From contig CP126198.1 of the NCBI GenBank assembly GCA_030272155.1, positions 5,802,501 to 5,866,500 on the forward strand: a stretch of DNA of 64,000 bases. Reading direction: 5' to 3'. Positions 1-64,000 of the stretch are shown piece after piece. The stretch comes from Tetradesmus obliquus (lineage: Eukaryota > Chlorophyta > Chlorophyceae > Sphaeropleales > Scenedesmaceae). The position numbers and the translations under genes are program-made. The notes under the pieces were generated by a model. That model saw only the letters and a list, made by a program, of their open reading frames with translations. It made no database searches and was not told the DNA's origin. Every line of letters starts with the position of its first letter. Position 1 is the stretch's first letter.

Positions 1-170
1 TCGGGTGCATGCTAGCGTGTATGTGGCGAAGCTGCCTGGGCATGCGTTGCTGGTGCTTGTTAGTTCTACAGATGCTCTGGTTGCAAGTCAGCGCGGCGGA
101 TGTCAACTCCTGCTTGCAACACAATTGCCGACGTGTGCTGTGGCACAATCGCCTGCTCCTCTGCAGGGCG

Positions 171-310
171 CGCGTGCCGTGCTTCAACCTGTCTCAGAAC
201 GAGGCTGGATGGCTCCTCCTGCTGCCAACCCATGCCAACATGTGTTGTTTCCGCATCTGCCTGTACTGCAGGGCGCGCGTGCAGTGCTTCAACCTGTCTC
301 AGAACGAGGC
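171..310 (+). repeat. 95-bp tandem duplication of an acceptor plus exon start
   Basis: About 45 bp beginning CTGCAGGGCGCGCGTG at 171-215 recur at 266-310 with few changes, giving a period of 95 bp. Each copy carries a CTGCAG acceptor and the same exon beginning (peptide CFNLSQNEA). The downstream copy continues into the long open exon, so the upstream copy is the decoy. Confidence 0.85.
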
Positions 311-2263
311 CGTGCAGTACTTCAACTACGCCCCGCACCTGCACGACCCCAACCAGCAGCGCCGCCAAGCCTCCCTGCAGCACGCGCTACAGCACGCCGG
401 CCGCGCTGCATGGATGATCCAGCACCCCCAGCAGCTGGTGCCGCCCAGCAGGGACCTTGCGGCGCTGCTGCAGGGCGTGCTGCGCTGGGAGGGCTACCAC
501 CCCCAGGAGGGCTTTGTGGGCTTTGGCATCAACCTGTTGAGGCTGAGCTCGGAGCAGCTGCGCTTCAGTGTAGCAGTGCGCGGCACGCCGAACAACAACA
601 ATGGTGAGGCGCGTGGCAGCAGAGCTGCGTCTCTGCTTTGGGGTATGTAGTATCCATGTACAGCTGCTGACGCTGGCTACGAATACGCGGCAGCTTGAGG
701 CAGTCACGCACGTCTGAATCCAACGTAACGTGGCTGACTACGGGTGCCCGCGTGTTGCTGAGTAGTTTCGCCGCAGCGGAGATGCCCGGCAGGGTGGGCC
801 CTCAGTCTAGCTGCTTGCAGACGTGCTCAACACATACTGCTTGCACTCCGCATCATTGCCGCATCCTTGGCATTGGCAGCTCCGGCCACCTTTCCTCTTT
901 TGCTGTGCGTGTGCTGCAGGCGAGCGGCTGCGCTTTGCGCCCAATGCGCCGCCGCTGCGGCTTGGGCTGCGGCACACAATGTGGGCCAAGGCGCTGTCCA
1001 ACCTGCTGCTGTTTGAGAGTGAGGTGGCCATCCAGAGCTTCAGGGAGCGGCTGGGGGCAGCAGGCAGGGCGCTTCCGGGGTGAGTTGCTGCTGGCAGAAG
1101 AAGTTTGGTTGTTGGAAGTACTGGTCGGAGGCCTGCGGCATCACCATCGCTGGCTGCTAATTTCATCTGATTAGCGCTGTGTTCCGCCTGCCTGCCTGCC
1201 AGCCAGCCGGCCTTCTTGCCTGTTTGTGCGCGGCTGCTGGTTCCCTCCGTCGCTGGCTGAGGCTCATTGCGCACATCTGATGAACGCTGACCTCTGCCTG
1301 CCTGCCTGTCCACCTGCCTGCTCCCCTGCAGCTGGGTGAAGCTCATCGCGCTGGACGGCTCCACCTTCAACATGCTGACACCACATCTAATGATTTCTAT
1401 AGTTTGCCTGCCTGCCTGCCTGCCTCTCTGTGCGCGGCTGCTGTGTCCCTCCGCAGCTGGGTCATGCTCATTGCGCACATGTGGTGATCGCTGCTCTCTG
1501 CCTGCCTGCCTGCTCCCCCGCAGCTGGGTGAAGCTCATCGCGCTGGACGGGTCCACCTTCAACATGCGCGCCATGATGGAGGGCGTGGCCCTGGGCATGC
1601 CAGGCCCGGGCAGCCTCGTGTTTGGCGGCGTGGGCCAGGAGGAGGCGCTGCCCAGCAGGCCGGCGGCGCTGGCGGCAGCAGCAGCAGCAGCGGCGGGCCC
1701 GCTGGATCTGCGGCTGCGGCACGCCATGGTGAGATGCCGTGGGGTTGCTGCTATGAGGCAGTGCGGCTGTTTGTTATGGTGTGGTGCGGTGAGCCAGCTG
1801 CCTGGCGGTGCCTTGAACGGCAGGGGATGGGAGAGGCTGCTGCTGAAGATCTTGCCTGATTATGTGTTCCATGCACCCCTGCTCAACACGTTGGCTCCAG
1901 CTATACTCATCAACTGCGGAAAAAGCAACACTGTTTATGCATTAGTGCAAACTAAGTACAAGCAATTCGTTCTTATACAAGCATTGGAGATGCTAGCAAT
2001 GTGGTAACTGAGTGCTGCTTTGACCACCTGCCCCGGCTGTATGTTGCTGCTCGCAGGGCCTGGCGCAGCAGCTGCAGAATGCGCAGCAGGAGCAGGAGCA
2101 GCGGCAGGGCGAGCAGCAGCAGAGGCAGAGGGAGCTGCGACAAGCGCAAGCAGCTGTGGCCGCTGCAGAAGAGGCGCTGGCGGCTGCGCAGCAGCAGCAG
2201 GCAGATGAGCTGCCGCAGCTGCAGGACAGCATGCGGAGGGTAGATGCGGAGCTGCAGGAGTGA
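272..2263 (+). CDS. C-terminal part of a DMS3/GMI1/SMCHD1-like chromatin protein (5' partial)
   Basis: Four exons join in phase: 272-603, 920-1079, 1524-1728 and 2057-2263. Upstream exons lie off the left edge or were not recognised. The peptide contains GFVGFGINLLRLSSEQLRF, then a Leu/Phe-rich stretch (NLLLFESEVAIQSF), then LIALDGSTFNM, and ends in a Gln/Glu-rich coiled coil of about 65 residues. This order resembles my recollection of the C-terminal region of plant DMS3/GMI1 and animal SMCHD1 (a conserved G-F-G-Y-A-x-N-L/M block, an LF..LQVY block, then a SLDG block before a coiled coil). Members of that family act in SMC-like hinge complexes, RNA-directed DNA methylation or recombination. 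The family call is inference; the exon phases and coiled coil are direct. Both the first and third exons are preceded by a duplicated copy of their own acceptor and exon start. Confidence 0.4.
1185..1575 (+). repeat. 192-bp tandem duplication of an acceptor plus exon start, in frame
   Basis: The segment ending with the acceptor and the first exon codons (peptide WVKLIALDGSTFNM) occurs twice, with exon starts at 1332 and 1524. The period is exactly 192 bp, a multiple of three. The preceding intron sequence, rich in CCTG, is duplicated too. The frame stays open between the copies, so either acceptor could be used, and the first would add 64 residues. Confidence 0.85.
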
Positions 2264-3092
2264 CACAGGCAGCATAGCATAGGTGGTTGCGGGCCCCTGC
2301 AGAGAGTGCTTCACTGGTGCAGGCGGTTGTGGTTGTGAACAGCAGCAGAGTTGCAGCTTCGAGCAGCGAATGCTAAAGGTTTGGGTTTGTTGCGAGGCCT
2401 GGTGTGTGCCGGCATGTGTACACTCAAGGAGCTCTGCGGCCGGACCATTGCGGCTGGCGTGTGTGGGGATATCGACAGCTTAGTACAGCAGCGGCGCAGA
2501 TGTAGCTGTGGTATGGATTGAGGTCATAGCACAGCTGGCCGCTGTGTGAGGGGCCTTTGTGAACTGTGCACACTCCAGAAATGTCGTTTCTAGTGTTGCA
2601 ATGACTCGGCTGCTCTAGAACAGGTTTTAACCATACAACCCAAAGACATTTGTGTTTCCCAGAAGAGCTAGGCCCATGCAACGTGCAAAGCTGCAACTCT
2701 GGATGTTGGTTGGGCACGTGTGTGGCAAAGCAGATTTGCCGCATGGTGAAAGCAACCACAAAGGCTTTAAAGGGAGTTGAGGGACGCTTGTATCACAGAA
2801 TTGGCCAGCATAAGCTGTGAGAGATCAAGTGGCTGAGCAGTGAGTGCCAGACACGTGAAGTGCCAGCACGGTCTTTCTGGCACAAGATCACACACGAGCA
2901 AGCTCGCTGTAAGGCATGCTCATAGCGTCCTTAGGTTCAACAATTTGACTTTAAAAACGCAGTCAAGCACGTCTCAGGGCGACAGTGACCCGCTGGTGTC
3001 ACCGCTTGCTCCCCAATTTCTAGCGCGATCATCGGAGATAAGAAACCAAGCGACATCTAACTGTCCAAAATTACCTCTTACTTGGCCTGAAC
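2264..3092. other. 3' flank of the first gene and 5' flank of the carrier gene
   Basis: No coding exon recognised. A TGTAA poly(A)-type signal lies at 2909-2913, about 650 bases after the upstream stop. It could end a long 3' UTR. Confidence 0.4.
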
Positions 3093-4827
3093 ATGCCAAG
3101 CAGCGGCGAAGCCGCTGGGCAGCAGCAACAGCAGCAGCAGTGGCACCTGATACAGCAGCTCAAGAGCAGCAGGCTGTTCAGCGAGGTAGCAGTCAGCGGC
3201 ACAGGCGTGGCATGCGGCACCACAGTTACAAACCCCATAGGTAGGTGAACCTCGACTACTACTCAGGCACCCTGGCACCCAATGTTGGTGACTGCTTTGA
3301 CCGTGTCTGCTCACTGGTTCCCGTTCTCTGCTTCTTACTCGGTGCTGTAGATGTCGTGAAGACTCGTCTCCAGCTGCACCCTGCCACCAAAGCAGATGGC
3401 CCTGCACCCGGCATGGTAGGCTTACATTGCTTTTGGCCATTGTGTAACAGCACAGCAGGTGCCAGCTTCAGCACGCAGCTGCTCTTCTGCAGACCATAGC
3501 CTGCTCTAACCGCTCAGTGTTCCCTGAAGGCGACAGCATGTGCGGGGCAGCAGCGGCCAGGAAAGGCATGTTTGTCTCCAAGCAGCTGTTGCTGCTGGCC
3601 TGCAGGTGCGCACAGCAGCAGCCATCCTGCGCCAGGAGGGCGTGCTGGCGCTGTGGAAGGGATGGCTGCCTGGCGTCACCCGCGGCATCCTGTACGGAGG
3701 TGCGGCGCAGCGGCGGCAGCAGCAGCAGCAGCAGCAGCAGCAGTGCTGGTGTTGCAATTGTCACGGATGCCGCCACTTGCAGCAGCACACGAGGCAATGC
3801 CTGCCACATATATCGCATGTGGGCGCCCGTGCTGCGTGTGTCAGCAAAGCGGCCGCAGCGCCAGGAAGCAACGCCATGCCTGCTGTTGATAGACACCTGC
3901 ACCTGACACTACTGTACAACGTGCTGCAATTTGCCATCAGGGTTGCGGCTTGGGCTGTACAACCCCATCAAGGAAGCACTGGCAGCGCACCAGCAGCAAG
4001 CAGCAGTCAGCATACACAGCAGCAGCAGCAGCAGCCAGCCCAGCAGTATACACAGTAGCAATAGCAGCAGCAGCAGCAGCAGCAGCCCGTCTTCTGCCGT
4101 GAGCAACAAGCTGCTGGCGGGTGTAGCCAGCGGCTCACTGGCTGCCGCGCTGCTCAGCCCCACAGAGCTCATAAAGGTGCGGCTGCAGCGCTGCTGTTTG
4201 CAAAACATGTAATCAACACATATCAGCCCGACACAGCTCATCAAGGTAAGGCTGCAGTGCCTCTGTTTATACAACAAAAGTTGTTGTTATGCATATCAGC
4301 TTGTGGCTCACTGGCTGCAGTGCTGCTCAGCCCCACGGAGCTCATCAAGGTGCGGCGAGGGCAGGGAAGCATGCAGCGCTGCAGTTCACGACAGTCGTGC
4401 CAAATTCTGTTGCCATTGCAAACTCAGCTGGGCCAGGGCTGGCACAGCTGCGCACTATGCGAGCGCGGTCAGTGTCAGCAACTTGCCTATCTGCGTGTTG
4501 GGTTGTGAGGAAGGCTGCAGCAGCACCACACCATGCGAGTGTGCTCAGCAGTAGCTCACCAGCCTGCGGGTGTTCTGGCGCTCCTGCAAGTGTGCTGCAG
4601 CCGCCTGTTGGGTGTCCTGCAAGCGTCTCCTGTGTGCGCAACTGTGCTGTAGGCACCTCGCAGCCATAATCTCAGCTGCCAGCAAAAGCTGTGCCCTGTC
4701 GAGCCGTGCAGGCCCGCCTAGCCAAGCTATAATCACTGCCACGTGCTCAATAACAGCAGCAGCCATCACCAATATCACCCAAACCTGGTCACAAGCAGCT
4801 GCCATGTTGGCTGATCTCACCTCAGCC

Positions 4828-4877
<50 letters not shown>

Positions 4878-6429
4878 AGGTGCGCCTGCAGGCCCCCCGG
4901 AGTGCCTACAGCAGCGCCTCGGCAGCAGTGGCGGCAGTGGTGGCTGCAGATGGCGTGAAGGGGCTGTGGAAGGGTGCCACGCCAGGCGTGGTGAGCAGCA
5001 GCATAGAAATGGCCTCAGCATGTTGCAACGGCGGCAGCTGCGTGACTGTTGCAGTGCAGCCGCTGCCTGTCAGCTGCGCAACGCTGCCTACTGGCAGCAG
5101 CCGCAGGTCAAGTGTGTTACGGTGCGCCTGGCTCAGCATGCAGCAGCCTTGTGGTTTGCTGATCTATGTTGCAGCATCCCATGACTGCACCAGCAGCACA
5201 TCAGGAGTCGCATTATGGGGCACTCTGTCTGTTGCTGCTCACTCCTGCATCGCTTGCCTGGAATGCCGCTGCTGCTGCTGCTGCCGGTCAGGTGCGTGCC
5301 GCCGTGCTGACTGCCTCTCAGTGCGTCACATACCACAAGAGGTGAAGGGCCGGCTGATGGCTGCCACGTTGAGGCATCTTGTCTGCCGCTGCTCACTCCT
5401 GCACTGCCTGCCTGTGGTGCTGCTGCTGCTGCTGCCGCGCAGGTGCGTGCAGCCGTGCTGACTGCCTCTCAATGCGTCACATACCACGAGAGGTGAAGGG
5501 CCGGCTGATGGCTGCCACGTTGAGGCATCTTGTCTGCCGCTGCTCACTCCTGCACTGCCTGCCTGGCGTGCTGCTGCTGCTGCTGCCGCGCAGGTGCGTG
5601 CGGCAGTGCTGACTGCCTCTCAGTGCGTCACCTATGACGAGGTGAAGGGCCGGCTGATGGCTGCCACTGGCTGGCGGGACAGCGCTGCCACACACCTGGC
5701 CACTGCCATGATCACGGGCGTGGTGTCAACCACAGCCACCAACCCTGTGGACGTTATCAAGACGCATATGTTTGTAGGTGAGTGGTGCCGTATCAGTGGT
5801 GTGCTGCACTGCCAGGCGCAACCCCACAGTGCGCAGCAGTTCCACTACTAAGTCCACCTTTGGTCTAAGATAGGCGCTGAGCCACCAAATGCGCCACTGT
5901 CGGCTGCCTCGACGTGGCCATCTAGCAACGATCTAGCCATGATCACGGGGGTGGTGTCCACCACAACCACCAACCCATTGGACATCATCAAGACACACAT
6001 GTTCGTGGGTGAGTGGTGGTCTGAGTTTGGACTGGCAGTTTTTTTTTCCGGAGCTGCACCCTGTAGCACTGCCGCACTGCGCTCTGGGCCCCGAGCCCTT
6101 GCTATCAGCTGACACAACTGCGCCACTAGCTGCGCCGCTGTCCACTGCATCCCTCAAAGTTGCCACTTCATACGGCTGATGCAGCATCGCTTGTTGTCAC
6201 CCTTGACGTTGTCCTGCGCGCTGCGACGTGTGTCGCCTGTGCTGCAGGCGGCCGCAAGCACGCCGGCCCGCTGTCGTGTGCCGCCTCGCTGTATGCTGCG
6301 CACGGGCTTGCCGGCTTCTGGCGAGGCTGGCTGGCCAACTATGCGCGGCTGGGCCCGCAGACTGTGGTGACCTTCCTGGTGGTGGAGCAGCTGCGCGGCA
6401 GCCTGGGCATGGCGCCGCTGGGCAAGTGA
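3093..6429 (+). CDS. Mitochondrial carrier, UCP/dicarboxylate subfamily
   Basis: Seven exons join in phase into 339 residues: 3093-3240, 3351-3415, 3606-3699, 3941-4176, 4880-4990, 5594-5777 and 6248-6429. All three carrier signatures are visible: PIDVVKTRLQ, PTELIKVRLQ and PVDVIKTHMF. LRLGLYNPIKEAL and ARLGPQTVVTFLVVEQLR are typical of the uncoupling protein, dicarboxylate and oxoglutarate carriers of the mitochondrial inner membrane. Length is slightly above the usual 290-320 because of a Gln-rich N-terminus and a Ser-rich loop (about residues 112-140). The substrate cannot be fixed from the sequence. The first ATG starts directly at a Gln-rich leader followed by helix 1. The gene is unusual in carrying four separate families of tandem exon-end duplications, in the intron after exon 4, before exon 6, after exon 6, and after the stop. 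Confidence 0.85.
4131..4360 (+). repeat. Three tandem copies of the exon 4 end and donor site
   Basis: The end of exon 4 (peptide SPTELIK followed by GTGCGG) is repeated at about 4215-4255 (diverged) and 4300-4355 (close). The extra copies lie in the intron before exon 5, and each keeps a GT dinucleotide at the donor position. Confidence 0.75.
5220..5665 (+). repeat. 151-bp tandem array, three copies of the exon 6 acceptor and start
   Basis: Exon starts fall at 5292, 5443 and 5594, a period of exactly 151 bp twice. Each unit holds a CTG-rich tract, an acceptor and the first ~60 bases of exon 6 (V-R-A-A-V-L-T-A-S-Q-C-V-T). The first two copies carry a 2-base length difference against the third that shifts the frame before EVKGRLMAA, so only the third gives a working exon. 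Confidence 0.9.
5705..6015 (+). repeat. 231-bp period duplication of the exon 6 end and donor
   Basis: The exon 6 end encoding MITGVVSTTATNPVDVIKT, with its GTGAG donor, starts at 5708 and recurs at 5939 with a few substitutions (T-N-P-L-D-I-I-K-T). The second copy lies inside the intron before exon 7. Confidence 0.85.
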
Positions 6430-7080
6430 CGCTGGCTTTGAATGTTATTGTTTAAACAAAACTCTGCAGGCCTATCAAAAGCTCTCCTGCTCCTGACGTG
6501 CTGTCGAAGCATGCCATACCAGTGACTCAGAGGCTGGAGCATGGGCTCCAGCTGCCGCAGTTCGTGGCTGCACCTGCTGTGGTGACCTTCCTGGTGGTGG
6601 GGCAGCTGCGGGGGTCACTGGGCATGGCGTCGCTGGGCAAGTAACGTGTTACGTTGTATTTTTTACGAAGTGTTAGACCCAGCAGGGGCCCTGCAGGGCT
6701 ACAAACAGCTCATCTGTGCCTGGTGTGCTATCGCTTGTTCAACTGAGCTCATGAGTTTTGATGAATGCTGGCTCAGAGGCTGGATGCCGGGCTCCAGCTG
6801 CCGCAGCTTGGCTGCACCTGCTGTGGTGACCTTCTGGTGGTGGAACAGCTGCGGGGGAGCCTGGGCATGGCGCCGCTGGGCAAGTGATATCACATCGCAT
6901 CGATGCTGTGTGAACACAACGTTGTATGTTTGTTTTTTTATGATGACGCCCAGCAGGGCCCCTGCAGGGCCACCAACAGCTCAGCTGTGCCTGGTGTGCT
7001 GTCACTTGTTCAGGTCAGTTTTGAAGCATGCTGGCTCAGAGGCTGGGCTTCAGCTGCCGCAGCTTGGCTGTAGCTACTAG
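6330..7080 (+). repeat. Tandem copies of the last exon end including the stop
   Basis: The stretch encoding VVTFLVVEQLRGSLGMAPLGK plus stop starts at 6364 and recurs at about 6579 and 6822 with small changes. A fourth, shorter piece of the same unit lies near 7025-7075. Copies two and three share further flanking sequence, so they duplicated after the first event. They sit in the 3' flank. Confidence 0.85.
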
Positions 7081-13002: not shown

Positions 13003-16000
13003 ATGTTTCGCCCCTGTACCACCGTTGCCAGCTTCAGCCTGGGGTGCAATCGCCAGGCCCTGCTGCACAGGCTGAGAGGACAGCCTCGAAGCCACGTAAC
13101 GAAGGCCGGGGCTGCACCATCAGTTGCGCAGGACATATCTAAAGAAGCAATGGATCCGGGATTGGAGCAGGTGGTGCGCTGCATCCATGGCAGTGCCACC
13201 AAAGCAGCTGTGTACGTCACTGGTGGTGCTTCACAGGTGAGACAAGCATGAGCAGGCAGGCAGGGCAGTTTGCAGCTGCGCATTAGCATCACAATGGGGC
13301 CGAGTACAAACCCCTGGAGCTTCTCAGCGGTCTGTTTTCGCAAGTTTAGTGTGGCTTGTGCAGGGCAGCAGCGCTGACGCATCAGGGGCTCCACCGGCAG
13401 CAGTGCAGGGGCCTGCACTTGCGTTCATACTGACATAAACGACAGTTCTTTGACGCATTCAGCATCATCATTCCGTGTCATAATTCTGTAACAAAAGGAG
13501 TGCAGGTGTCGCAGACCTGCCGTGCAGAGGAGTAAGGGCTCCTGCTTGCCAGTCATGCAGCCTGCTCGCCCTCAAAGTTCATCCTGCATCTCGCTGCTCG
13601 ACTCACCACGGTGCTGGTTGCACCTGCAGGGCGTGTCTTGGCTGATGTGCGTGCCTGGCGCATCAGCCACAGTGCTGGAGGTGGTGGTGCCCTACAGCAG
13701 GGGCAGCCTGGTGCAGCTGCTGGGCCAGGTGTGACGTGGTGTGGTGCTGCTGGGGGGAACGCAGAGTCACTGGATGCAGTGCACGGGTCGGAGCAAACTG
13801 CTTGGTGCACAACATTTGGGCTGGTCATGCTACGGGCCAGCTGGGGAGCTTGCTGGTAGACGCACTGGCAGACAGCAACTACCAGCTGCAGCACTTCTTT
13901 CTGCGCTGCGTGCATTGCCTCCACCTGGCTGCCTACTGCGCTGCTGCGGCTGCCTCACAGGAGCCGGAGCAGTACTGCAGCGCTGACACAGCGCTGTCGC
14001 TGGCCAAGGCAGCTTACCAGCGCGCAGCAGCCCTCACAGCGTTTGGCACGCACGTGGTGGGCCTGGCTACCACGTGTGCGCTAGCCAGTGAGCCGCCTAA
14101 GCGCGGCCAGCACCGGGCGTATGTTGCGGCGCACAGCGGCAGCGGCAGCCGGCTGCTGGCTGTGGTGCTGGCCAAGGGGGCGCGCAGCAGGTGGCAGGAG
14201 GAGCAGCTGGTGGGGCAGGCGCTGCTGCAGGTGGGTGGCTGGGTATGCAGGGGCGCCTTGTTACAATGAAGGCCTGGGCTTGCCCCAATGCAGGCAGCTG
14301 TGTCGTGTGTGCCATGGCCTGCTGAGCCAGCTGCTATGCTTCAGCAGCTGCAGGGCATGGGGAAAAGACATGCAGTGATGTATGCACACAGGTGTGAGGT
14401 AGTATGGCGCTGGTGTGCATGCCTGTTGGAATTGCAGAATGGTTTGAGACTTCAATTGGAGGGAGGCGTATCAGTGACCATTCTTTGGTTTTGCCGCAGA
14501 GTTATACATACGTGGGCAGGAGGGTGCAAGTGCAGACGATGTGCAGGTTAGTGTTGCTGAAGTATGTACTGCATGCTGTTGCGCACACTGCAGGTGCTGG
14601 CACAAGCATGTGGCTTGGACCCTGCCAAGCTGCCCCGTCTGCCACTCCTAGGGACACAGGCGGCTGCTCCTGCAGGGCCAGATGCAGACGCCGCTGATGC
14701 AGCAGCAGCAGCAGCCAATTTGCAGCTTGACAGCGGTGTCAACTCTAACAGCATACAGCCGCAGCAGCATGTTGTGCATGATGAAGTGCAGAGCGAGTTC
14801 TTGCCTGCGCCAGACCCGCTGCAGCAGCTACTGGCGGGGCGCGTGCGGTGCGTGGAGTACAGCGGCGGCCGCGTGTTTGTGGACGCGCCGCGCTGCGGGG
14901 CCGGCATGCCCCGCGTGTACCTGCCTGGCAGCTTCAACCCGCTGCATGACGGGCACAAGGCGATGCTGGCTGCTGCTGTGGAGATGGCTGGGCCGGGCGC
15001 TGAGGGCTGCTTCGAGCTGACAGTGCAGAATGCAGACAAGGTGCGGGGGGCTTGTCTGAGGGGGAGGGGGATTTGCTGCTGCCCTGGTGACGGCTGTAGG
15101 TGCTGCTGTTCGGGTGGCTGCCTGGGCTGAAGTTTGGAGTTTCACCTGCAAGATCTGGCATCAAGGCAAACCAGCAAGGCGCCCATACCTGCTGCTGCTG
15201 CTGCTGCATCACTGCAGGGCCAGCTGGGGCTTGAGGAGGTGCAGGCGCGCGTGGCGCAGTTTGTGGCTGCTGGGCTGCCGCTGCTGGTCACACGTGCCAC
15301 GCTGCTGGTGGACAAGGCGCGCCTGCTGCCCGGGGCCACCTTCGTGGTGAGTGGAGCGGTGTGGGGGAGGAGCAGGTGCATGCGTATGTGTTGGTGTTAT
15401 CTTGGTGTAGTCAGGAGGCTGTTGGGGCAGCTGCAGGCAGGGGTGCATGCGGAGTTACTAGCATAGTATGGGACATGCAGCCGTACCCGCAGGCTGCAGC
15501 ACAGCAGCTTCCGGTGACTCACTGTGGACAGTTTCAGGAGGGGCAGCCTTGCCCAACAGCTCCTTGCTTGCAGGAGAGGTCCAACTGCTCAGTAAACAGA
15601 TGCCGCCTGGCCTCTCACTGGCAGCCTTGGCTCGCCCATGTGCCTGCTCTCATGCTACCCTGCCTTCCTTTGCTTACCGGGTCGCCTGCCTGCCTCATGG
15701 ATGCGCTGTCGGATCATCGCGTGCCTGCCCTGCCTGCAGCTGGGCTGGGACACTGCGGTGCGCATCGTGATGCCCAAGTACTACGGCGGCAGCGAGACAG
15801 GCATGGCGCTGGTGTTCAGGGACATCCAGCACGCCGGCTGCAGCTTCCTGGTGGCGGGCCGCGTGGATGACAAGGGTGATGGGCAGTTCAAGGGCTTGCA
15901 GGACATCGCGCTGCCAGCCGAGGTGGCTGGCCTGTTTGCAGGCATCCCTGAGGACAAGTTTAGGAGTGATATTTCGTCGACGGCGCTGCGGGCGGCTGGC

Positions 16001-19337: not shown

Positions 19338-19373
<36 letters not shown>

Positions 19374-20974: not shown

Positions 20975-21016
<42 letters not shown>

Positions 21017-21358: not shown

Positions 21359-21395
<37 letters not shown>

Positions 21396-49967: not shown

Positions 49968-52900
49968 TCAGGTCGCTGCGCAGATCTGTATGGGCTGCAG
50001 GTACATGGGGTAGGCCGCCACTGCCGCCGTCGCCAGCTGGCGCACGTCCAGCACATTCAGCCAGTGCCAGCTCAGGCTGCGCCCCAGCAGCCGGCACTGC
50101 CCCACGGCAGCCTCGTAGCGCCTCAGCAGCCCAGCCAGCTGCTCAGCCTCCTCAAGGCTCAGCCCGGCAGCAGCAGCAGCAGCAGACCCGTCGCAGCAGC
50201 AGCAACAGCGCCCCGCAGCGCCTGCTGCGGTTCCGCTGGAAGCTGCTGCAGTGTGGGCTGTGTGGGCAGGAGGTGCGATTGCTGCTGCTGTTGCTGTTGT
50301 GTCTGTTGCTGGGAGGGGTTGGGTGGGTGGATGCTGTGCATGGCAGGCGCAGGCGCTGCCCTTGGTGAGCAGCGCGGACATCTGCCGCGCCAGCGGCTGC
50401 AGCCGGGCGATGAGCGCAGCGCGCCGCGTGGTGTACACCTGGCGGCGGCGCAAGTCGCAGGCGGGAGCAGCACAGGCAGCAACGTCAGCGCAGGGCCCCT
50501 GGACAGCACAACCACACACCACAACATCAGCCAGGCGCATCCGGCAGGAGCCAGCCATTGCATGGTGCACGCTGCGGGGCTGGTGGGGCCTCAGAGGCTG
50601 CTTGGCTGCTGCTGCTGCTGCTTCTGCTGCTGGCTGAGCACCATGACAATGCCACAATCAGTACACGCAAGCACAGGCGAGGCTGTGGCGGCCACACACC
50701 CAGCCGCTGCCGCCCACCTGGAAAGCGCTGCGCAGCTGCTGCCGCTGCTCAGGGGAGAGCGGCAGCGCTGCTGCCACCTGGCGGAAGTGGTCGGGCGAGG
50801 CCACCGCGGGCCTGCCCGTGTTACAGTTGACCTGCGCGTGCATGCGTGCATGCAGTACAGCGCTGAGTCAAAGGCCCAGTGCATGACAACAGCGCCACCT
50901 GCAGCATGCAGTTGAAGGCAACCTGCTGTCTGTGCAGCACTGCGCAGCCGATCTGCAGAGCTGCTGCTGTGTAAGGCAAGGCTCTGGGCAAGGCTCTGGA
51001 TGGTTCTGGCAGCGCGCGCTGTGGCTGCTCATTGGCAGGCGCGATGCATCACAGCAGCGCCGCCTGCAGCATGCAAATGCAGGCGGCCTACAGTCTGTGC
51101 AGCATCGCTCGATCCCCGTTGCAGGGCTGCTGCAGTCACGCGCCGAGGCTTGCTGCCACCAGCTACGTCGCCGTCTCACCAGTGACAGCTGCACATGAAG
51201 CGCCCTGCTGTCTGTGCAGCATGGCACCACCTGGTTTGCTGTCTGTGCAGCATGGCACCACCTGGTTGGCCGAGCTGCTGCAGGAAAGCGGCAAGTCTCG
51301 CTGCCGTGTTCTGCCGCCTCACCAGTGACAGTTGCAGCACCAGCTTGGCAGTGCTGTTTGTCACAACAGCGCCACTTGCAGCATGCACTTCAAGGCAAAC
51401 TGCTGTCTGTGCAGCAAAGCAGAGCTGGCTTGCCGAGCTGCCACAGTTCAACGCCAGGGGCTGCTGCCATGTTCAGCGTCCTCACCAGTGACAGCTGCAG
51501 CACCAGTTTGTCAGCCGCGGCGAAGAGCAGCATGTGTGTGGTGACCACCTGGGCCACCACTGCCTCAAGGCTGTCAGCCAGGCCGCGATTGCCCGGGTGC
51601 GCCAGCAGGAAGGCCGCGCGCATGATGCGCCCACGGTACAGCGCCAGCACCTCACCCATGCTCGCGCGCCTGCAATTTGTAACAGCAAGTGTTTTTGTGA
51701 CTGGCTACGGCTACTTCGCTGTAGTGACGTTATATAATGTCCCGAGGTTCCTGCTGTTGGTGTATGCAACAATCGGTCTCTCTGGCACAGCGCCAGCACC
51801 TCACCCAGGCTGGCACGCCTGCAAATTATAACAGCAAGTGTTTTTGACTGACTACGGCTACTTAGCTGTAGGACGTTGTAAAATGCCTCAACGTTCCTGC
51901 TGTTTGTGTATGCAACAATCGGTCTCTCTGGCACAGCGCCAGCACCTCACCCAGGCTGGCACGCCTGCAAATTATAATAGCAAGTGTTTTTGACTGACTA
52001 TGGCTACTTAGCTGTAGGACGTTGTAAAATGCCTCAACGTTCCTGCTGTTTGTGTATGCAACAATCGGTCTCTCTGGCACAGCGCCAGCACCTCACCCAG
52101 GCTGGCACGCCTGCAAATTATAACAGCAAGTGTTTTTGACTGACTACGGCTACTTAGCTGTAGGACGTTGTAAAATGCCTCAACGTTCCTGCTGTTTGTG
52201 TATGCAACAATCGGTCTCTCTGGCACAGCGCCAGCACCTCACCCAGGCTAGCGCGCCTGCGGTGTGTGCCGGCAGCAGCAGTAGAAGCAGTGCGTATTGC
52301 GGCAGGTGATGAGACACATCGGCAGCGGTATGCTGCATTAGTTGCTAGCAGACGTTCATTCTTTTGCTGCACACTGCGCCAGCACCTCGTCCAGGCCGGC
52401 ACGCCTGCGGGATGCAGAAATGCAGGCGCATTTCAGCAGTGCTTCCACGGTGCAGGCACCAGGGTCACTTTTGCGTCGTCGGCGGATGCACGTGGGCAGC
52501 GTGCTGTGCTGACAGCCAACACAACTCCGGGGCGCTGCTGCGCGCATTGCTGTGCAGTGCCCAAGTGTGGGACACACTGGGCATGCCGGCTGCATTGTAC
52601 TGAGGTACAACCTGTTGCTCCATTTCCCAAGCAACATGACTTGCAGGGCCATGCCATCAGCGCAACCAGTTGAGCAGCTGTCGTTGTCACTCAGGCGCCG
52701 CACAGCATAGCTGCTGTCACCGCCCCAAGCAGCAAGTGCGAGCGCAACTCCCTGCTGTGGCTGCTGCCGCCCCCGGCCTGCGGCCACCCCTTGCAACCGC
52801 TGCCCCCCCCCCCCCCCTCCCCCTGCTGCAGCCCCGGCCATGAGCCCAGCCCGCCACCACCCACCTTGCCCACGCAATGTTCTCAGCAGTCAGCGCGGCG

Positions 52901-53217: not shown

Positions 53218-53280
<63 letters not shown>

Positions 53281-55875: not shown

Positions 55876-58810
55876 CTAGGGCAGCGGGCTGCACTTGAGG
55901 GGGCCGCCTGGCGCCACCCTGCAGTCAGGCCTCCAGCACAGGCAGCCGCTTGGGAAGACAGCTGCAGCAGCAGCAGCAGCAGCAGCACGTAAACAACCGG
56001 CTGCGTTGAAACGGCAGCGAGCCACACTTGAAGTGTATCATAGCAGGCATGGCCAGCAGCTGTATGGCATAGCGAGCTGTCAGGCGGCATGCCCAAGGAC
56101 GGGCCCTGCGCTGTGCACACTTGTCTCGCAGCGGCCATGGATGCCACAAAGCACGGAGTATTGGTGAGCAGATGTTTTCATGTACTCCCCCAATGGTATA
56201 CTGATACCAACCGGCTTGAGCACAATTTGCAGCCAGCGGCTAGCGGGAGGCTCAGCAGCACAAGCCCACATGCCCCTTGCAGGTGCGGCAGCTGCAGCTG
56301 CTGCCAGCAACTGCCCAACAGGGCACTGCACCGCCCAAGCGCATCCACGCAAGCTGTAAATGCAACTGCACCATCTCGAAAATGCGTTCATGTATGGCGC
56401 AGCCGCACCTGAGTGTGGCACCACCACCTCCGTGTCGCTGCCCTGCAGGCGCCGAATGTCGTCCAGGAACGCGTCGGTGCTGCCATCACGCAGGCTGCCC
56501 AGCTGCTGCAGCACTGCCGGCCAGCCAGGCGACGCCTCCCCTGCAGGTGCAGCGCAGCACAGCACACAGCTGTCACCACAACATGTCAAATAAAACCTGT
56601 CAAGAAGCACGCATGCCCCGTGAGGGTTGAACAGGGTGCACGGTGTTGGTGGTTGCTTCAACAGCTGAACAGTGCTGGTCAAGCAGGCATGTTGCCGAAT
56701 CTTAAACAGACTGCACACAGCTGCATGTGGTGATTCAGGACCCTTGGTGGCCCAGCATGCTCACCGGTGAGGAAGTATGCGCTGCCCACATCAGCAAGGA
56801 TGGCGCCATACCTGCAGTCAGAGACGAACATGACGGGGCGTGTGCAGTCATTGTGGCCTTGAACTTGTGCAGATCTGGAGAACAAGAACTGCCATGGCAA
56901 AGCACATGTGTTGATGCTGGTCTCCAAGTGCAGCTGATCTTACTGGCAGGCTTAGAGCGGGCTGTACAACCTAGTGGGTATGGCCTGCGCTCCAATTCTG
57001 TATAAACAGCCTCCAGCCCGAGCACTCACTTCTTCAGCGCCGTGCACACGATCCTGCCTGCGCGCGTCGTCATCTTGCCAGCAGGGCTGCAATCATACCC
57101 GGCCCTCAGCCGCAGCCGCATGCCCAGCCAGGGCGCATCAGGGGGCACCTCCTCCCTCAGCCGCACCAGGTGCGAGGCGGGGAACTGGTACGCGGGCAGC
57201 ACGATTGGCGCGGTGAAGCGCAGCGCGTGGCGGATGGCGCCTTGGCGCAGCTCTGCCAGCTTGACCAGGCCTGGTGTGATGGCCATGCCGCCTGCCTCTG
57301 CGCTGGTCCAGCCCAGGCGGCGTGTGATGGCGCGCGGGCTGCTCAGGTTGAACCTGGCGCCGCCGCTGCAGGCCCAGGGCGCTGCAGGTGAATTTGGGGA
57401 GTGCAGCAGACTGGTGGGGCAAGATGCTGAAAGATAGGGAGGGCAGTTTGCTGAGCAGAACCGCATGCATGCACAGCAGAGAAGCACTGTGCGCGTATTC
57501 CAGCTGACAGGGCAACGCTTGCAGCCTGCTGCTCATGGCTGCTACAGCCTCACCTGCCAAGCTGCTGGGTGCAATGCAGTTGGCCGCCTCCCACAGCGTG
57601 CATGTGGCATTGTCTATGGCCAGCACGTGCCTGTCGCCAGTGCAGCTGCTGGGGGGGCAGCCGGGGTAGGCGCCCTCGATGGCTGCTGCCAGGGGGAAGG
57701 GGTAGGTGCCGTTGTCTGACTCGTCTGCGTACAGGCTGAACTGGGTGCGGCGCCTGGGGTAGGCCAGGCCCTTGGCTGGGCTGGTGTCCACGTAGTTGAT
57801 GGGGATGCCTGTGGGGAAAATAGAAGAAATGCAATTCAGGAAGAAGCAGGCATAGATGCTAGGCTGGTGACTGCAGGGTGCAGCAATGTGGGAGGCATGT
57901 TGCAGGCTATGTGATCATTGAGCGTGCGCAGCCTCCTGGCAATGCCGAGCACACAGGCAGGCAGCCGGAGCGAGCAGTTGAGTGCGCTGTGGGATTGTGC
58001 TGCATACAGGCGGAGCATGCAGCCGACGGCAGCAGCAGCATGCTGCAGCACCTGCAATGCGGCTGCCCCCTCACCGTAGTAGATGTTCCTGCCGTTTTCC
58101 ACTGTGCCACCCACAAAGTCTGCCTTGAAGGCGGCGGCCTGGCCCTTGGCTGCTGCTGCCTTATTGATGGCCGCGATGATGAGCCTGCAGGGGCACCAGC
58201 AATGAACGCAAAAGCATCTTGTGCAATCTTGTCGTGGAAGAAGGCCCCGCAGGTCTACACGTGCTGGCTGCTGTGAAGGGTTTGCCAGCATCTGCCAGCA
58301 CATGTCCAGTTCCAATGGTCTCTTGCCGAGCATCCATATGGTCACAAGGCCAACAGCAGCGGCAGGCGCCATGCGCAGCAGCCAGCTCACGTTGAGTTTG
58401 GGTGCACGGCGTAGTTGGCGCCGTTCACGGGCCTGTTGATGGCGTGGGAGGCGGGGAACAGCACGCAGCTGCCGTCAGCATTCCTCAGAGGCTGCCCGGC
58501 AGGTGGCGGGGCGCCCGCCCAGCAGCTGCTGCAGGCGCTGCCGCTGCAGCCACACGTCACCTCCAGCAGCGGCCTGTATGCTGGCTCATCACTGTACTGG
58601 CTGAGCAGCAGTGCCGGGCTGCCCTTGGTGGGTGACCTGCAGCACAGCAGCAGCAGCAGCAGCAGCAGTGTGCATGGCTACGCGTGACAGCGGCATTGCA
58701 GGAGGCAGCACGGAGCTGCTGTTTGCTGTTCATGAGCTGATGCACATTTGCTCCAGTATCGACAGAGGTGCCGTGCGGCAGGAACACAACAAGCACAGCA
58801 ATGGGAACCG

Positions 58811-58869
<59 letters not shown>

Positions 58870-61800
58870 CAACCTTGCAGCGCAGGCGCACCTGATCAGC
58901 AGCCCCGCATTGCCCTGGCCCAGCAGCGGGCCCCTCTCAGCAGCCAGCCAGGCCTTGAGCAGCGCAGCAGGCAGTGGCAGCGACACATTGGTCACGCCGG
59001 CTGCTGTTGACGGTGCGTCGGGCAGTGGCAGCGTCCAGGTGTGTACTGGGTCGCAGTCGCCCCAGCCGCCGGGCGACTTCCAAGCGATGGGTGTGCTGCA
59101 GCAGCGAACCAGTGGGTGTGTGGGGAGGAGGCTCTGGAGTGCTGAGGTAGCATGTGACGAGTATTGCAGCTAGGACCGGATGCGGTGCATGCGTGAGAGC
59201 TGCAAGTGTCATTATTGGGTTGCTGTGTCTCTCAAACCGGCCGGAGCAGTCAGCAGCGCACTGTTGGTCTGAAGATCTGCCAAGCTGAGCATCGAGAGAC
59301 ACTCTCAGTAGACTGCAAATATCTGCAGTGCGGCAGCCGGTGCAGGCTGATGATGCGCATCAGCGCCTCGCTGCAGGGTGCAACCCACCTTTGGCCGTTG
59401 AGCATGCCCGTTGACTTCCAGCCCAGCGCATACTCCTGCAGAGGGGGAGAGATGCCGTACCAGTCTGTGCGCAAGGCACACACCTGCAGCCAAACACGCC
59501 GGCACCTTGCATGATGGAACACAGCGTTTTGAAAGCAAGATGAGGATTGGGGCAGGGCTGTAACAGCAGCTGCGAAGCAGCTGCACCAAGTGCAGCTCTG
59601 TTTGTCACATATACGCTACGCAAGGCCTGCGCATGTCGATCTGTGGCTCAACTGCTGCTGCCACTGCTGCTGCTGCTGCTGGAGCAGGCTGCCGCTCACC
59701 TGCAGCGTCACGCCCGCGTCCCAGCTGAGGAAGGTCAGCGTGAGCTTGGCTCCCACAATGTTGGCAGCGGCAGCCATGTAGGTGCCGAGGCCAGCAAACT
59801 TCAGCAGCACCCGCGCAGAGTACCCTGCATCCACATCGTCTGACACGGTCCACTGCGGGGCGTCATATTCCTTAGCATGCGGCCACAGCTCAGTGTAGCC
59901 CTGCAGGACAGCACAGCCAGCAGGGCAAGGCAGGTTTCATGACTGGACAAGGTCATGCAGGGTTTTCGAGTAGTGCGCTGGCTGTTGCATGTACACAAGC
60001 ATGCAGTCGTGCACTGTGCTGACATCCACTGCTTGCGTACGCATGCACACACCACCTGGATCACACTTGCACGCATATGCACAGCAACCACAGCCACGCG
60101 CCTGGAAGTTGTTATAGTCAGCAACGCCCTGCGTGGATATACCCGCATCAATCGTGCCGTTGTACGCCACCATGCTGCCATTCAGTGCTTTAAAGGCACG
60201 GCCGGTCTGCAGCGCCAGCTTGGGCCCGTCATGCCCGCTGCTTGGACCAGGTGGAGGTGAGGGTGACGGCTTTACAGCAGGTGGTGGTGATGGTGATGCA
60301 GTGGCGGGTTTAGGGCTTGGGCTGGGCTTGCTGTTGGGCTTGGGTGAGGATGGGGGTGGGCTGGGCTGGGGGCTGGGGCTTGCAGGCGTGTTGTTGTCTT
60401 TACCTGGGATGGGTGGCGGGCACTGGCCGCATGTGCACACCTGTGGCATATGTTTTTGCGCACAGCAAGTCGCTACACGTCACCATCTGCCCACGTCTAT
60501 CCATGCGGCTCAACGTTATGATGGCGTGGCAGGGTTGAGAATACTAAAAGTAACAGCCGCTCACGTCGAGGGCGGCGCAGCGAGGCTGGGCTGGCCGCTG
60601 CATGCTGCGCTGAGCCTGAGGCGCCACAGCCTGGGCAGCGGCTGTACACTCGCCCTTTTTCTGGAGTAAACTTAAATGCAGTCAAGCATGCACTGGGCTA
60701 GAGCGCGGTCATTCCGTAACTCTATGTGTTCAAGTTCAAAACTGCTTGCCGGCTCCGCCGCCTCAGGGGTGCTTCCAGCCTGCCCACCTGGCAGTAGTCG
60801 TCGTTGCGGTCAAGGGTGAAATCGTCCCGCATGCCACACAGGCAGTCCTCACCTGCAGCAACAGCACCCAACCTCTCAGCCTTCGGTCCAGAATGCAGCG
60901 GGCTTTCGCAGCAAAGCATGCTGCCTGTTAGGCAGCGCTGGCAAGGGAGTGGCACTGTACATACAGCAGGCTGGGATATGGCATGGCGGCTTGCACATGC
61001 ACGCGTTGCTGCGCTGGCTCACCTGGCAGCATGACGGCCTCAAAGTCACGACCATATATCGATCGCATGTCAGCCTGCAACAGCGGTGGCAGCAGCAGGC
61101 GCAGAAGTAGCAGCTTGAAAGGGCTTGGCATGTACTGCAGGGAGCAACCCGTTACCTGCCTGCCTGCCTGCTGCTGTCAGGTTGCACTTGCAGTCAGGGA
61201 CCTCCGCCTACATGCATGCCATGCATATGAACCTGCACACATCACAGCCTGCAGCAGCCAAACATCACATGGCTGCGGTACTACCTAGTAGCAGCAGCGC
61301 CAGCCACCAAGAAGCATGCTGCCAGCAGCCCAGCCGCAGCCGCTCACATGGAACGCGTCCATCTTCTCTTCCACGCTCGCGCCTGGCTGGCCCGCCACGC
61401 TGACCAGGGCCGACCAGTCGTCAGGGCTGGCCGCCTCGCCCTGGAAGTACCAGCTGCTGCCGTTGTCTGCCAGGATCATGCCGTACCTGCACAGCACATG
61501 TGTAGTGCGCGGCCATACACACTGCCGTTGCAGCAGCTGTGCATGCAGGGCGCATGGGCAATCTAGGTAGGAAAAAGGCTGAATGCAGGTCCCGCCACCA
61601 TCTCAGGCACTGCCTGCAGCACATGCCAGATTGCCTCAGCAGCACACCCCCTCTTGTGCAGGACACAACCGCAAGCCAACAAGAAGAGGAGCCTGAGGTG
61701 GTGCAGGGTCTGTGCTAGCCCCCGCAGCGTCTCACTTCTTCATGGCTGCACAAACCATGCGTGCCAGGTCGGTGGCCAGGCCCCCACAGCTGAAGCTGCC

Positions 61801-63836
61801 CCGCAGCCTCACACGCATGCCCATCCAGGGGTAGCCTGGGTTGTTGTCTGCAGGCACAGCAGCGGCACCAGGCGCACACGATCATCCGCTGGTGCAAGCC
61901 AGGCGAGCTGATGCTATCTGGCAGTGCTGGTGCAGGTGCTGTGACCATGTGCCAGGCATATGCACACAGTATTGAGCAACACACATCATGCATAGGAGCG
62001 CGCACTGTGTGCTAGCTGCCAGTGCTGATTGACTGCTGTCAGCTGCATCATCTGGAGTTCTGCAGCATGCCGCAACATGCTGCAGCAGCCGCGCGTACAG
62101 CCGGCTGCTCACATCCTGCCCTGTGGCTTGCTGGGTAGGCGTAGGCGTCATTGCTGGAGCCCATGGTGAAGCGGATGGCGTGGGCGATGGCCCCGGACCG
62201 CACGTCAGCCAGCGTGACTAGCCCAGGCAGCAGCGGCAGACCAGCTGCAGCAGCGCAGGCAGCAGCAGAATGGAAGCACAGACATGACACAGCACCGCCA
62301 GTTCAGTGTGACTCTGCGGCAGAAGAGCATGTGGTCGTGTGTCTGATGGCTTAGGCCTGTTTTGCTACTCCGCTGCTGCGGACCGAGGTGACACAAAACT
62401 GCCACGATCAGCCCCAACACCGCCAACCGACTGCTCTTCTGTGCGACCAATTTAAACACAAGGCTGCACTGCTGCTGTACGCGCAAGGCGCTGCTGCTGC
62501 TGCCGCACCTGCATCCCCTGAGGTCCAGCCCATGGTGCGCTGCGGCAGCCAGGGCTTGCTCAGGTTGAACACCACGCCGTTGCCGCAGCGCCAGGGGTCT
62601 GCGGTGGCACGGAAACAGCACATGCCGTCACTCTCCATTATCCCTCATATATTTTCTTGTAGCGCAAGTAATTCGCAAGGAGCTGCTGCACGGTTGGGGC
62701 CAGGTACAGATGAGGTCAGATGGCACATCACAGACCCGTTTTCTGCGCATGCGAACTTCATAATCTTGGGCACCAGCTATCCACCCCAACCGCTGCACAA
62801 CATGATCATGCCGCGCTCACCGTCCATGCTGGCGGGCCGCGTGCAGTGCCAGGCCTCGTACAGGCTGCAGGTGGCGGCGTCCACCACCAGCACGTGGCGG
62901 TCACCCCCACACTCGGGGTCCCAGTCCTTGGGGGGGCAGCCAGGGTACGCGCCTGGACAGCAGGACGGCAAGCAAGACATATGTTGCACAACTGCAACCA
63001 CTAACATCTGGCAGCTTTCAATATGCCGCGATGCAGGAGCAACAGCACATATGTATGCATACAAGTGCGCAGCAACAGCAGCAGCGCTCTTCGAAGACCA
63101 ATGAGTGGTAGAACACAAATAAATCTTGAGGCCAGAGAATTCTCTGGCCTCAAGACTTATTTGTGTTCTAACATTGCCAGCAAGCATCGACACAACAAGC
63201 ACAGCGCCCACCTTCGATTGGCGCATCAAGTGGGAAGGGGTAGGTGTGGCACCTGCCGTTGCTGTGCACGCTGCACTGCCAGTCTGTGTCGTTGTCGCTC
63301 TCATCAGCGTAGGCGGTCCACTCGGTGGCGTCACTGGGGATGCGGGCCACGTCAGCAGGCTGGCGCGTGTCCACTACTGAATACGGGATGCCTGGGTGCA
63401 GCAACGATACATGTGCCGCATCAGCAGCAGAGCAGGCCGGGTGGGCCACTGGCCTGAGGGCCACACGGCTGGCAATGTTGCAGGCTCTGTAGCAGTGGCG
63501 GAACAGCGCATCTGACAGTGCAGTGGGCTGCACCATGCTGCAGCTGTGGGGTGTTGTGAGCAGCATGCTTACAGCTGCTGCGACTTGTCTGCTGGCAGCT
63601 GGCATTGATGCATGGCCGGAATGCAACGCAAGTGACGTTGAGAGTAAGTGGGGAAGAGGCTGGTTGGTGGGTGGTGTAATGTGTGACATGTGCCCCACAC
63701 TAGTGGCACTACAGTCACCACTTCCACGCGGTGCACGTGCTGCGCCGCCTCACCGTAGTAGGCGTCACCGGCCTGGCCGTAGAAGTCTGCATGCAGCTCT
63801 GTGTCTGGCGCCATGCTCAGGCTGAAGTTGAGCAGG
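55876..63836 (-). CDS. Large secreted protein: two bacterial-like modules, Pro/Ser linker, DNRLRE/CBM96-like domain (5' partial)
   Basis: Twenty exons join in phase into 1016 residues plus stop: 63754-63836, 63212-63391, 62821-62952, 62509-62598, 62113-62244, 61736-61847, 61348-61486, 61023-61074, 60788-60852, 60102-60440, 59700-59900, 59389-59483, 58892-59095, 58391-58636, 58075-58184, 57554-57808, 57030-57381, 56765-56811, 56409-56540 and 55876-55961. The start lies beyond the right edge. Two copies of one module share LHADF/FKADF, GIPxxxVDT, YADESDN, YPFPL, IEGAYPGCPP, DRHVL, GWTS, PGLV, RFT, YPASH, GMRVRLR and KKYGMILADNGS. I recall the same order in unnamed bacterial secreted proteins. 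Between them lie VCTCGQCPPPIPG, a Ser-Pro linker and a domain resembling DNRLRE/CBM96 (ARVLLKFAGLG, AKLTLTFLSW, YRPLLEVTC). Extracellular or cell-wall localisation is inferred from the linker and Cys. One donor (exon ending at 60102) would be GC. Two adjacent genes remain possible. Confidence 0.65.
58810..58868. repeat. CTG tract in an intron of the secreted-protein gene
   Basis: About 18 CTG units on the + strand, CAG on the coding strand, directly after the donor of the exon ending at 58892. A second tract of CTG on the coding strand (58645-58668) precedes the next acceptor. Confidence 0.9.
63109..63170. repeat. 62-bp near-perfect palindrome in an intron
   Basis: The left arm 63109-63139 and right arm 63140-63170 are reverse complements at 30 of 31 positions with no spacer; the centre is GAATTC. 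Arms begin TAGAACACAAATAA on each strand. It lies in the intron between the second and third exons of the model, about 40 bases past the donor. It could be a tiny foldback element or a structured RNA hairpin. Confidence 0.95.
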
Positions 63837-63861
63837 CTGTTGCACATGTGTACAGCGCCAG

Positions 63862-63863
<2 letters not shown>

Positions 63864-63894
<31 letters not shown>
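63864..63894. repeat. CAG tract, CTG on the coding strand, before the first visible exon
   Basis: About ten CAG units on the + strand, lying just upstream of the acceptor of the first exon seen at the right edge. The remaining bases to 64000 show no clear exon. Confidence 0.85.
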
Positions 63895-64000
63895 GCAGTA
63901 CGCGAGGAGGAGCAGGTCACACATGCATAAGCACAGCACAGACATAGGCCTGCCATGCCGCAGTGATTTAATCATAAAGTTCACTCTGAGCGAGTGGACA

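Follow-up and report, generated by a model that had tools for sequence, protein, structure and literature searches.

The compact nuclear genome of Tetradesmus obliquus holds many extra copies of exon ends, splice sites included. We found them in a stretch of 64,000 nt (the window: assembly GCA_030272155.1, contig CP126198.1, positions 5,802,501-5,866,500, forward strand) and in a 200-kb block from another contig, and our tests were run on these 264 kb taken together. With modest confidence, we think that the copies probably arose as small tandem duplications that land at random in genes, survive outside coding sequence and then decay to the exon end and its splice signal. The local copies, a rule for their layout, their depletion inside coding sequence, a chance-level junction rate among tandem copies and slower divergence on the exon side were observed directly. 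Overall, duplications of this kind are known; here they are unusually dense, and they show a conservation signal that our account does not explain.

Local duplication clusters numbered 12 in the window and 91 in the 200-kb block, and a search of the masked window returned 39 repeat hits versus 0 in one shuffle of it. Gene models were ab initio and came from one setting of four, kept before the tests for its plausible exon and intron lengths; two earlier gene-finder settings were dropped, one for producing tiny exons and the other for a surplus of short exons and introns. Starting from 205 similar pairs (spacing at most 600, length at least 35), we removed 36 without a contiguous exon and 3 with fewer than 8 codons, and the remaining 166 were reduced to 95 by redundancy removal and a spacing limit of 320. 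The spacing of these exon-associated pairs, chosen shortest spacing first and up to that limit, had 5-95% quantiles of 93, 112, 128, 152.5 and 249. The unit had a median of 128 bp, next to about 127 for exons and about 230 for introns. The 264 kb contained 87 exon ends with extra copies. They make up about a tenth of all exon ends and are spread over 34 of the 69 predicted genes. When 110 loci were classed by adjacency, 37 were tandem, 70 had a spacer of at least 35 bp (the spaced class) and 3 lay between.

An earlier note on this DNA had claimed arrays at exon boundaries or stop codons in at least seven genes. The arrays are real, ten of them in the window, but they fall in five genes. On the plus strand, acceptor and exon head occur twice at 98-310, 109 bp apart, the second copy working from 272, and again twice at 1226-1567, 204 bp apart, with the working exon at 1524-1728. 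Four arrays belong to a mitochondrial carrier gene, also on the plus strand. At 4132-4356, the first copy of an exon tail and donor works (exon to 4176) and extra copies follow it in the intron at distances of 69 and 173 bp, the former being the shortest spacing among the ten arrays (4154/4223). At 5226-5667, an acceptor and exon head of 151 bp is repeated 2.9 times and the last copy works (exon from 5594). At 5705-6018, a working tail with its donor (5705-5777) has an extra copy at 5936-6008, from which it differs by 8 synonymous and 3 nonsynonymous changes. At 6362-7078, the end of the last exon with its stop codon is present in three copies, 215 and 243 bp apart; the first works (stop 6427-6429), the others lie in the 3' UTR, and by reading the third carries a frameshift. 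The remaining four arrays are on the minus strand. A class 3 lipase gene has, by reading, four copies of an acceptor and exon head about 119-124 bp apart (29983-30395), the last in transcript order being the working one (exon 29905-30023). A second mitochondrial carrier gene has 4-5 copies of an exon tail and donor (36368-36903), the first in transcript order working (exon 36863-36988). "Folate-type" is the earlier note's label for this carrier; Pfam gives Mito_carr. Finally, a gene for a coiled-coil protein with no Pfam match has both kinds: exon tail and donor copies 148-165 bp apart at 50872-51514, where the working exon (51486-51669) is first in transcript order, and an acceptor and exon head of 146 bp repeated 4.2 times plus an older copy at 51635-52410, where the last copy in transcript order works (51669).

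Pfam identified two Mito_carr genes, one Lipase_3 gene and Ctf4/Mcl1. The "DMS3-like" label found no support, with no Pfam match at 1e-3 and a best PDB match at E 0.3. A secreted Cys-rich gene, put forward as a case with a 95-240 bp unit, turned out to have a 13-bp minisatellite repeated 4.4 times (26373-26429, plus strand) that overlaps the stop of this small secreted protein, with one diverged copy 88 bp on. In the Ctf4/Mcl1-like gene, the diverged direct copies reported in intron 2 are there (38955-39225, plus strand), but the unit includes no exon boundary: it is wholly intronic, exon 3 starting at 39269 by reading and by one gene-finder setting. One pair from this gene, 39030-39225, was built on a wrong gene start; it is one of the 87 pairs used for most divergence tests and was omitted only from the two-class dN/dS fit described below.

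By reading the window, we observed that in acceptor arrays the last copy continues into the exon, and that in donor and stop arrays the first copy does. Across the 264 kb, 87 of the 95 pairs follow this layout, the working copy being joined directly to its exon, and these 87 formed the set just mentioned.

The same note held that the repeated choice of boundaries is hard to explain by chance. For our placement null, one copy was removed ahead of gene prediction and the whole unit was classed, over the 110 loci. First, the 37 tandem loci comprised 30 junction, 7 noncoding and 0 coding units, a junction share of 0.81 versus 0.77 expected in genes (p=0.36) and 0.55 expected for placement over the whole sequence (p=0.0008). 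Second, the share was 0.90 versus 0.61 expected (p=1.2e-7) in the spaced class, for which the unit is extended on its less coding side, so that the coding-only class is lowered and its members may become mixed; scored by the still-alike stretch alone, this class contained 52 mixed, 9 noncoding and 9 coding units, or 47, 11 and 12. Third, all pairs at least 90% alike gave 0.87 versus 0.66 (p=0.007). The repeats themselves exceed chance. As to where they fall, the claim fails for tandem copies compared with in-gene placement; it holds in comparison with whole-sequence placement, for spaced pairs and for the set that is at least 90% alike. The tandem class fits random placement with selection on coding sequence; the spaced one does not. 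Because units are about as long as an exon and half as long as an intron, most tolerated units contain a junction, and the preference claimed for junctions follows for the most part from these sizes. Differential decay accounts for a share of the excess where the claim holds, not all of it. The case shows a size-matched null removing much of an apparent splice-site preference.

Units lying inside coding sequence were rare: 2 of 110 versus 32.7 expected in genes (a count lowered by the same extension of spaced units), 0 of 37 versus 9.3 in the tandem class and, when only the still-alike stretch is scored, 9 or 12 of 110 versus about 41. These counts support the earlier suggestion of selection against arrays inside exons. 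In the account that we favour, small tandem duplications would be frequent and roughly random within genes, with copies mostly 93-249 bp apart (median 128), and would come most simply from fill-in repair of staggered or nicked ends. Units wholly inside an exon would shift or lengthen the reading frame and be removed, in line with the depletion observed. Units touching a junction or a stop would survive because the exon-contiguous copy, presumably the one spliced, keeps working, while the other sits in an intron or 3' UTR. Later, both intron copies would drift and on the exon side one copy would be held fixed, so that the exon end and its splice signal would be the last part to remain recognisable.

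Divergence between copies agrees with this account in part. Tandem pairs differed by 0.084 substitutions per site on the exon side and 0.137 on the intron side, that is the exon side diverges 1.6-fold slower, a ratio near that expected with one exon copy constrained and the other free. In spaced pairs, only the exon end and splice signal are still alike, even where the exons differ little. The intron-side extension of spaced pairs failed to exceed the best of 20 random ones in 44 of 54 cases, and residual intron similarity at p<0.05 was seen in 17 of 54 versus 2.7 expected. Among pairs with exon divergence under 6%, 10 were tandem and 11 spaced, and a neutral-decay simulation of matching age, near the measured indel ratio, yielded 1 spaced pair of 150. 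Moreover, dN/dS between copies was 0.32 (0.26-0.40) versus 0.57-0.60 simulated for a free copy, and third codon positions diverged by 0.167 versus 0.129 predicted from intron contexts. Transition bias was rejected as the cause of this synonymous bias (ts/tv 0.90 in introns), as was local context (predicted rates equal at the three codon positions: 0.132, 0.134 and 0.129); gene conversion alone, by a pencil argument, would not bring dN/dS below about one half. Many extra copies are therefore better preserved than a simple random-landing account predicts, and our best explanation does not cover two features. One is that similarity is bounded by the exon in pairs that have diverged little; the other is that about half of the extra copies diverge mainly synonymously, though their amino-acid changes look random.

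One alternative, which we consider unlikely, is that the extra exon ends are functional, as alternative or decoy splice ends under selection whose intron flanks drift apart. In a two-class fit, 47% of 84 pairs had dN/dS 0.14 and the rest were near neutral, an improvement of 17.0 in 2 delta lnL on a single class, and dN/dS between two extra copies was 0.29 (0.23-0.37), with controls at 1.24-1.35 for wrong reading frames and 0.74-0.98 for intron alignments; a split into dN/dS 0.14 below 9% exon divergence and 0.39 above is confounded, as picking low divergence takes pairs with few nonsynonymous changes. The junction aligned in 77 of the 87 pairs, and there the splice dinucleotides were preserved in 35 of 38 donor copies and in 32 of 35 acceptor copies; most of the 54 spaced pairs lose their intron-side similarity at the splice signal, which also argues for function. 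Against it, nonsynonymous changes were no more conservative than random (BLOSUM62 -0.49 versus -0.53), stops in extra copies were near the neutral expectation (4 versus 6.0), and mean splice scores were lower in extra than in working copies (5.48 versus 6.41 and 5.15 versus 7.23), the working sites having been chosen by the same scores. Nor does spacing preserve frame (modulo 3, 32/29/26 of 87), on which ground in-frame alternative ends were rejected as a reading, and the synonymous bias showed no dependence on the frame of the spacing. Splice scores at the inner edges of extra copies were not above those of random positions (p=0.40 and 0.44); lacking this partner splice site, the copies are not cassette or mutually exclusive exons, in which each copy would have an acceptor and a donor. 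We give slightly less credence still to the broader proposal that about half of the extra ends are not debris but a reserve or decoy layer across the genome, in which selection keeps the coding sequence jointly with the splice signal.

It is improbable, in our view, that the copies are diverged functional alleles or subgenomes made tandem by unequal exchange, or haplotypes merged by the assembler, coding before they became neighbours. Such an origin would jointly explain the synonymous bias, the intact splice signals, the unalike intron flanks and the independence of frame. However, 34 exon ends have at least two extra copies, too many for two haplotypes, and exon divergence ranges from below 3% to above 16% with no single peak. 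Also, frameshifted members occur, by reading, within graded arrays, and no second version of three tested stretches was found elsewhere in the assembly. Assembly or haplotype merging as the main cause is thus weakened.

Less probable still is the reading in which something acting at splice junctions generates the duplications, for example hairpins formed by CTG/CAG tracts next to acceptors. The junction excess of the spaced class would fit it, as would the 13 exons with copies at both ends versus 4.3 expected if independent; the lack of excess in the tandem class does not. Slippage at such hairpins, the earlier suggestion, is not supported. Tracts of at least 5 repeats lay within 150 nt of 18 of 119 duplicated junctions and of 155 of the 529 remaining ones (odds ratio 0.43, p=0.0013), a deficit to which the masking of CTG/CAG tracts during repeat detection may add. 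In several donor-side pairs read from end to end, no such tract occurs. We are equally sceptical that intron gain by tandem genomic duplication is under way, with new introns spliced between matching points of the two copies. The unit length lies within the intron range and the layout resembles that described for a potato RdRp gene (PMC4974935), but AGGT in the duplicated exon parts is not clearly enriched (21 sites, 4.22 per kb versus 3.56 in all predicted CDS) and, by gene models, the copies sit inside existing introns and make no new ones. Introner-like, transposon or otherwise dispersed inserts were rejected: within the 264 kb, no spacer from 60 spaced pairs had a distant relative at E<1e-6, and when three extra copies were compared with the full 104.7 Mb, each found just itself and its neighbour.

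The earlier note knew of no named process for such arrays. Small tandem duplication through break or nick repair is one, and the potato case crosses an intron-exon boundary (PMC4974935, PMC8355091, PMC7971508). PMC7971508, citing Vaughn and Bennetzen 2014 and Schiml 2016, ascribes tandem duplications in rice, 50-200 bp long, to repair of adjacent nicks. Ours are likewise frequent, local and direct, about 100-200 bp, whereas they differ from those described there in being dense in genes, often multi-copy, of many ages and mostly parted by a spacer that has lost its likeness. Pol alpha-primase fill-in at breaks with 3' overhangs yields small tandem duplications in a different setting, human and mouse cells (PMC8355091); the likeness would lie in the mechanism. 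In the potato gene, the unit also spans the acceptor and the exonic piece of the upstream copy ends inside the intron, but a new intron is gained there, while our extra copies appear to lie in existing ones. Like tandem mutually exclusive exons (PMC9013439), they repeat exon sequence side by side inside a single gene; unlike them, only one exon end is copied, without a second splice site.

If the simple reading of random small duplications holds, this genome would offer an unusually rich natural record of such duplications and of how splicing tolerates them. If the conservation of the extra ends is real, it would point to selection on sequences outside current gene models, or to exchange between diverged alleles.

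Comparison of the sequence with itself after masking simple repeats gave 39 pairs of local direct repeats for the window, 207 for the block (a 200-kb stretch of another contig), and none for one shuffled window compared identically. Near-adjacent pairs grouped into 12 and 91 clusters, respectively. The repeats are real and dense: 264 kb hold 110 loci, or one in roughly every 2.4 kb. All statistics cover these 264 kb (64-kb window, C8:5802501-5866500, plus 200-kb block) of a genome totalling 104,662,953 bases in 17 contigs; the window has about 60% G+C, short introns and CTG/CAG tracts ahead of acceptors, features suggestive of a green alga.

Reading of the sequence showed that in 10 of the 12 window clusters the duplicated part includes either a stop codon or the end of an exon together with its splice site. 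A gene predicted at 240-2263 holds two of these clusters, a mitochondrial carrier gene (3093-6429) four, a coiled-coil gene two, and a class 3 lipase gene and a second carrier gene one each. The boundary-spanning arrays claimed in the earlier note stand for these ten, and do not for a small secreted protein gene, where the cluster is a 13-bp minisatellite at the stop, nor for a Ctf4/Mcl1-like gene (Ctf4), where it is confined to an intron. Pfam backed the identities of both carriers, the lipase and Ctf4, and of nine block proteins from genes with duplicated ends, the five tested had matches to COX15-CtaA, Clp protease, protein kinase, DUF829 and H2TH domains; the duplications therefore reside in ordinary conserved genes. 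Just upstream of the lipase gene, an A+T-rich tandem repeat (19 bp x 4.5, 30716-30800) lies in G+C-rich surroundings. Neighbouring genes predicted at 55876-60076 and 60722-63847 (- strand) encode visibly similar proteins and are probably a tandem gene pair; the one protein of the two that was tested had no Pfam match.

Gene models were predicted ab initio with a self-written, self-training gene finder (donor consensus GTGNG; training medians 120 for exons and 229 for introns), which makes errors within arrays and broke Ctf4 into pieces, a limit that applies to all results based on gene models. After removing one copy per locus, median exon/intron lengths were 127.5/224 in the window and 126/243 in the block.

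We then considered 95 non-redundant pairs in which one copy, taken as the working copy, is contiguous with its exon, the extra copy mostly appearing to lie in an intron or 3' UTR. The working copy came first in 48 pairs of donor or stop type and second in 39 of acceptor type, and only 8 pairs broke this rule. Such a layout is the outcome expected from tandem duplication of a boundary-spanning unit; since copies pushed into an exon would be purged by selection, it is alone no proof of tandem origin. Of the 438 predicted exons, 74 bear the 87 exon ends involved, and 34 of the 69 predicted genes are affected. Both ends are duplicated in 13 exons, where independence would give 4.3. Both-end examples, with the head copied upstream and the tail downstream, occur at block 15270-15438, 74880-75155 and 193202-193333 (stretches L010, L016 and L028). 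Several exon ends are duplicated in the Clp protease gene (block 18591-22989, L010 and L011), whose last exon head has three copies; in the first of them EYGMIDKV is replaced by DHGIVDRV, for example. An extra exon tail in the mitochondrial carrier gene (window 5937-6008, + strand) differs from the working tail by 8 synonymous and 3 nonsynonymous changes; its 72 nt with an AG in front would also allow a reading as an additional exon in frame.

For placement, one copy of each of 110 non-redundant loci was deleted, genes were predicted on the shortened sequence, and random placements of equal unit length served as null; 89% of loci fall within predicted genes. First, the selection against arrays inside exons proposed in the earlier note was supported, with 2 coding-internal units observed and 32.7 expected (9 or 12 observed and about 41 expected by the still-alike stretch alone). 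Among pairs spaced by no more than 320 and at least 90% alike, redundancy kept, 38 of 46 were partly coding, 5 had both copies coding and 3 were noncoding only. A 108-bp repeat in a protein kinase gene (L015:7955-8349), 97% identical and predicted coding, belongs to the few that are coding-internal; its unit length is divisible by three. Second, the preference for boundaries held in part. The 37 tandem loci, with abutting copies, comprised 30 junction, 7 noncoding and 0 coding-internal units (in-gene expectation 21.3, 6.4 and 9.3). With coding hits excluded, their junction share was 0.81 versus 0.77 in genes (p=0.36), and versus 0.55 when placed over the whole sequence, intergenic included (p=0.0008). 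Thus, tandem duplications reach junctions at the in-gene chance rate, and the deficit is in coding hits. The 70 spaced loci, whose units are only partly still alike around a spacer of at least 35 bp, comprised 61 junction, 7 noncoding and 2 coding-internal units, a junction share of 0.90 versus 0.61 (p=1.2e-7). This excess is not limited to old pairs, since the 31 tandem and spaced loci at least 90% alike gave 0.87 versus 0.66 (p=0.007). The nine tandem loci among the latter were 7 junction and 2 noncoding (6 and 3 if the other copy is kept), with about 5 junction, 1.5 noncoding and 2.5 coding expected in genes. The boundary preference thus follows mostly from how the sizes of units, exons and introns compare, together with the loss of coding hits. 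Third, the suggested CTG/CAG hairpins are not supported: such tracts, which were masked during repeat detection, are rarer near duplicated junctions (18/119) than near others (155/529). CTG tracts immediately before acceptors, as at window 4830-4877 (+) and 53218-53277 (-) and in several block introns, may be the pyrimidine tract.

Between tandem copies, substitutions per site were 0.084 on the exon side and 0.137 on the intron side, a ratio close to that for one fixed and one free copy, whereas indels (0.0053 and 0.0232) gave a ratio of 4.4, exceeding the expected twofold. Of 54 spaced pairs, 17 retained similarity between their intron parts at p<0.05 (2.7 expected), which indicates that some spaced pairs, at the least, are old tandem duplications. 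In 44 of the 54, the intron-side extension past the splice signal was no better than the best of 20 random ones. Among pairs below 6% exon divergence, 11 of 21 were spaced, compared with 1 of 150 in simulated neutral decay with matching divergence and an indel ratio near that measured. The exon-bounded similarity of spaced pairs does not fit neutral decay.

Extra copies differed from working copies with a bias to synonymous sites (dN/dS 0.32, 0.26-0.40), compared with 0.57-0.60 for a simulated free copy under the observed intron mutation spectrum; control values were 1.24-1.35 in wrong frames and 0.74-0.98 in intron alignments. Two extra copies of one end gave 0.29 (0.23-0.37; 34 exon ends), where a pencil estimate for two free copies is at least 0.55. 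Variation among 72 pairs was above binomial (p=0.0002), and a two-class model of 84 pairs put 47% in a constrained class with dN/dS 0.14. Two findings speak against constraint: single-base amino-acid changes, 156 in number, were not more conservative than random (BLOSUM62 -0.49 versus -0.53, P=0.39), and the 4 stops matched the 6.0 that so many changes should produce. A mix of constrained and free copies would give both patterns, as would unusually fast synonymous change in working copies: third codon positions differed at 0.167 versus 0.129 predicted from intron contexts, and first and second positions at 0.067 and 0.076, about half the prediction. As the bias showed no dependence on frame, simple in-line alternative splicing is a less likely cause.

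Published work describes known processes: Pol alpha-primase fill-in produces small tandem duplications in human and mouse cells (PMC8355091), a potato gene acquired a new intron through a tandem duplication over an intron-exon boundary (PMC4974935), and introns are recognised to be gained by tandem genomic duplication (PMC3443670). Among the titles and abstract openings listed by searches of the open literature, none reported genome-wide exon-end duplication. What merits specialist attention is that similarity is exon-bounded and that differences between copies are biased to synonymous sites.
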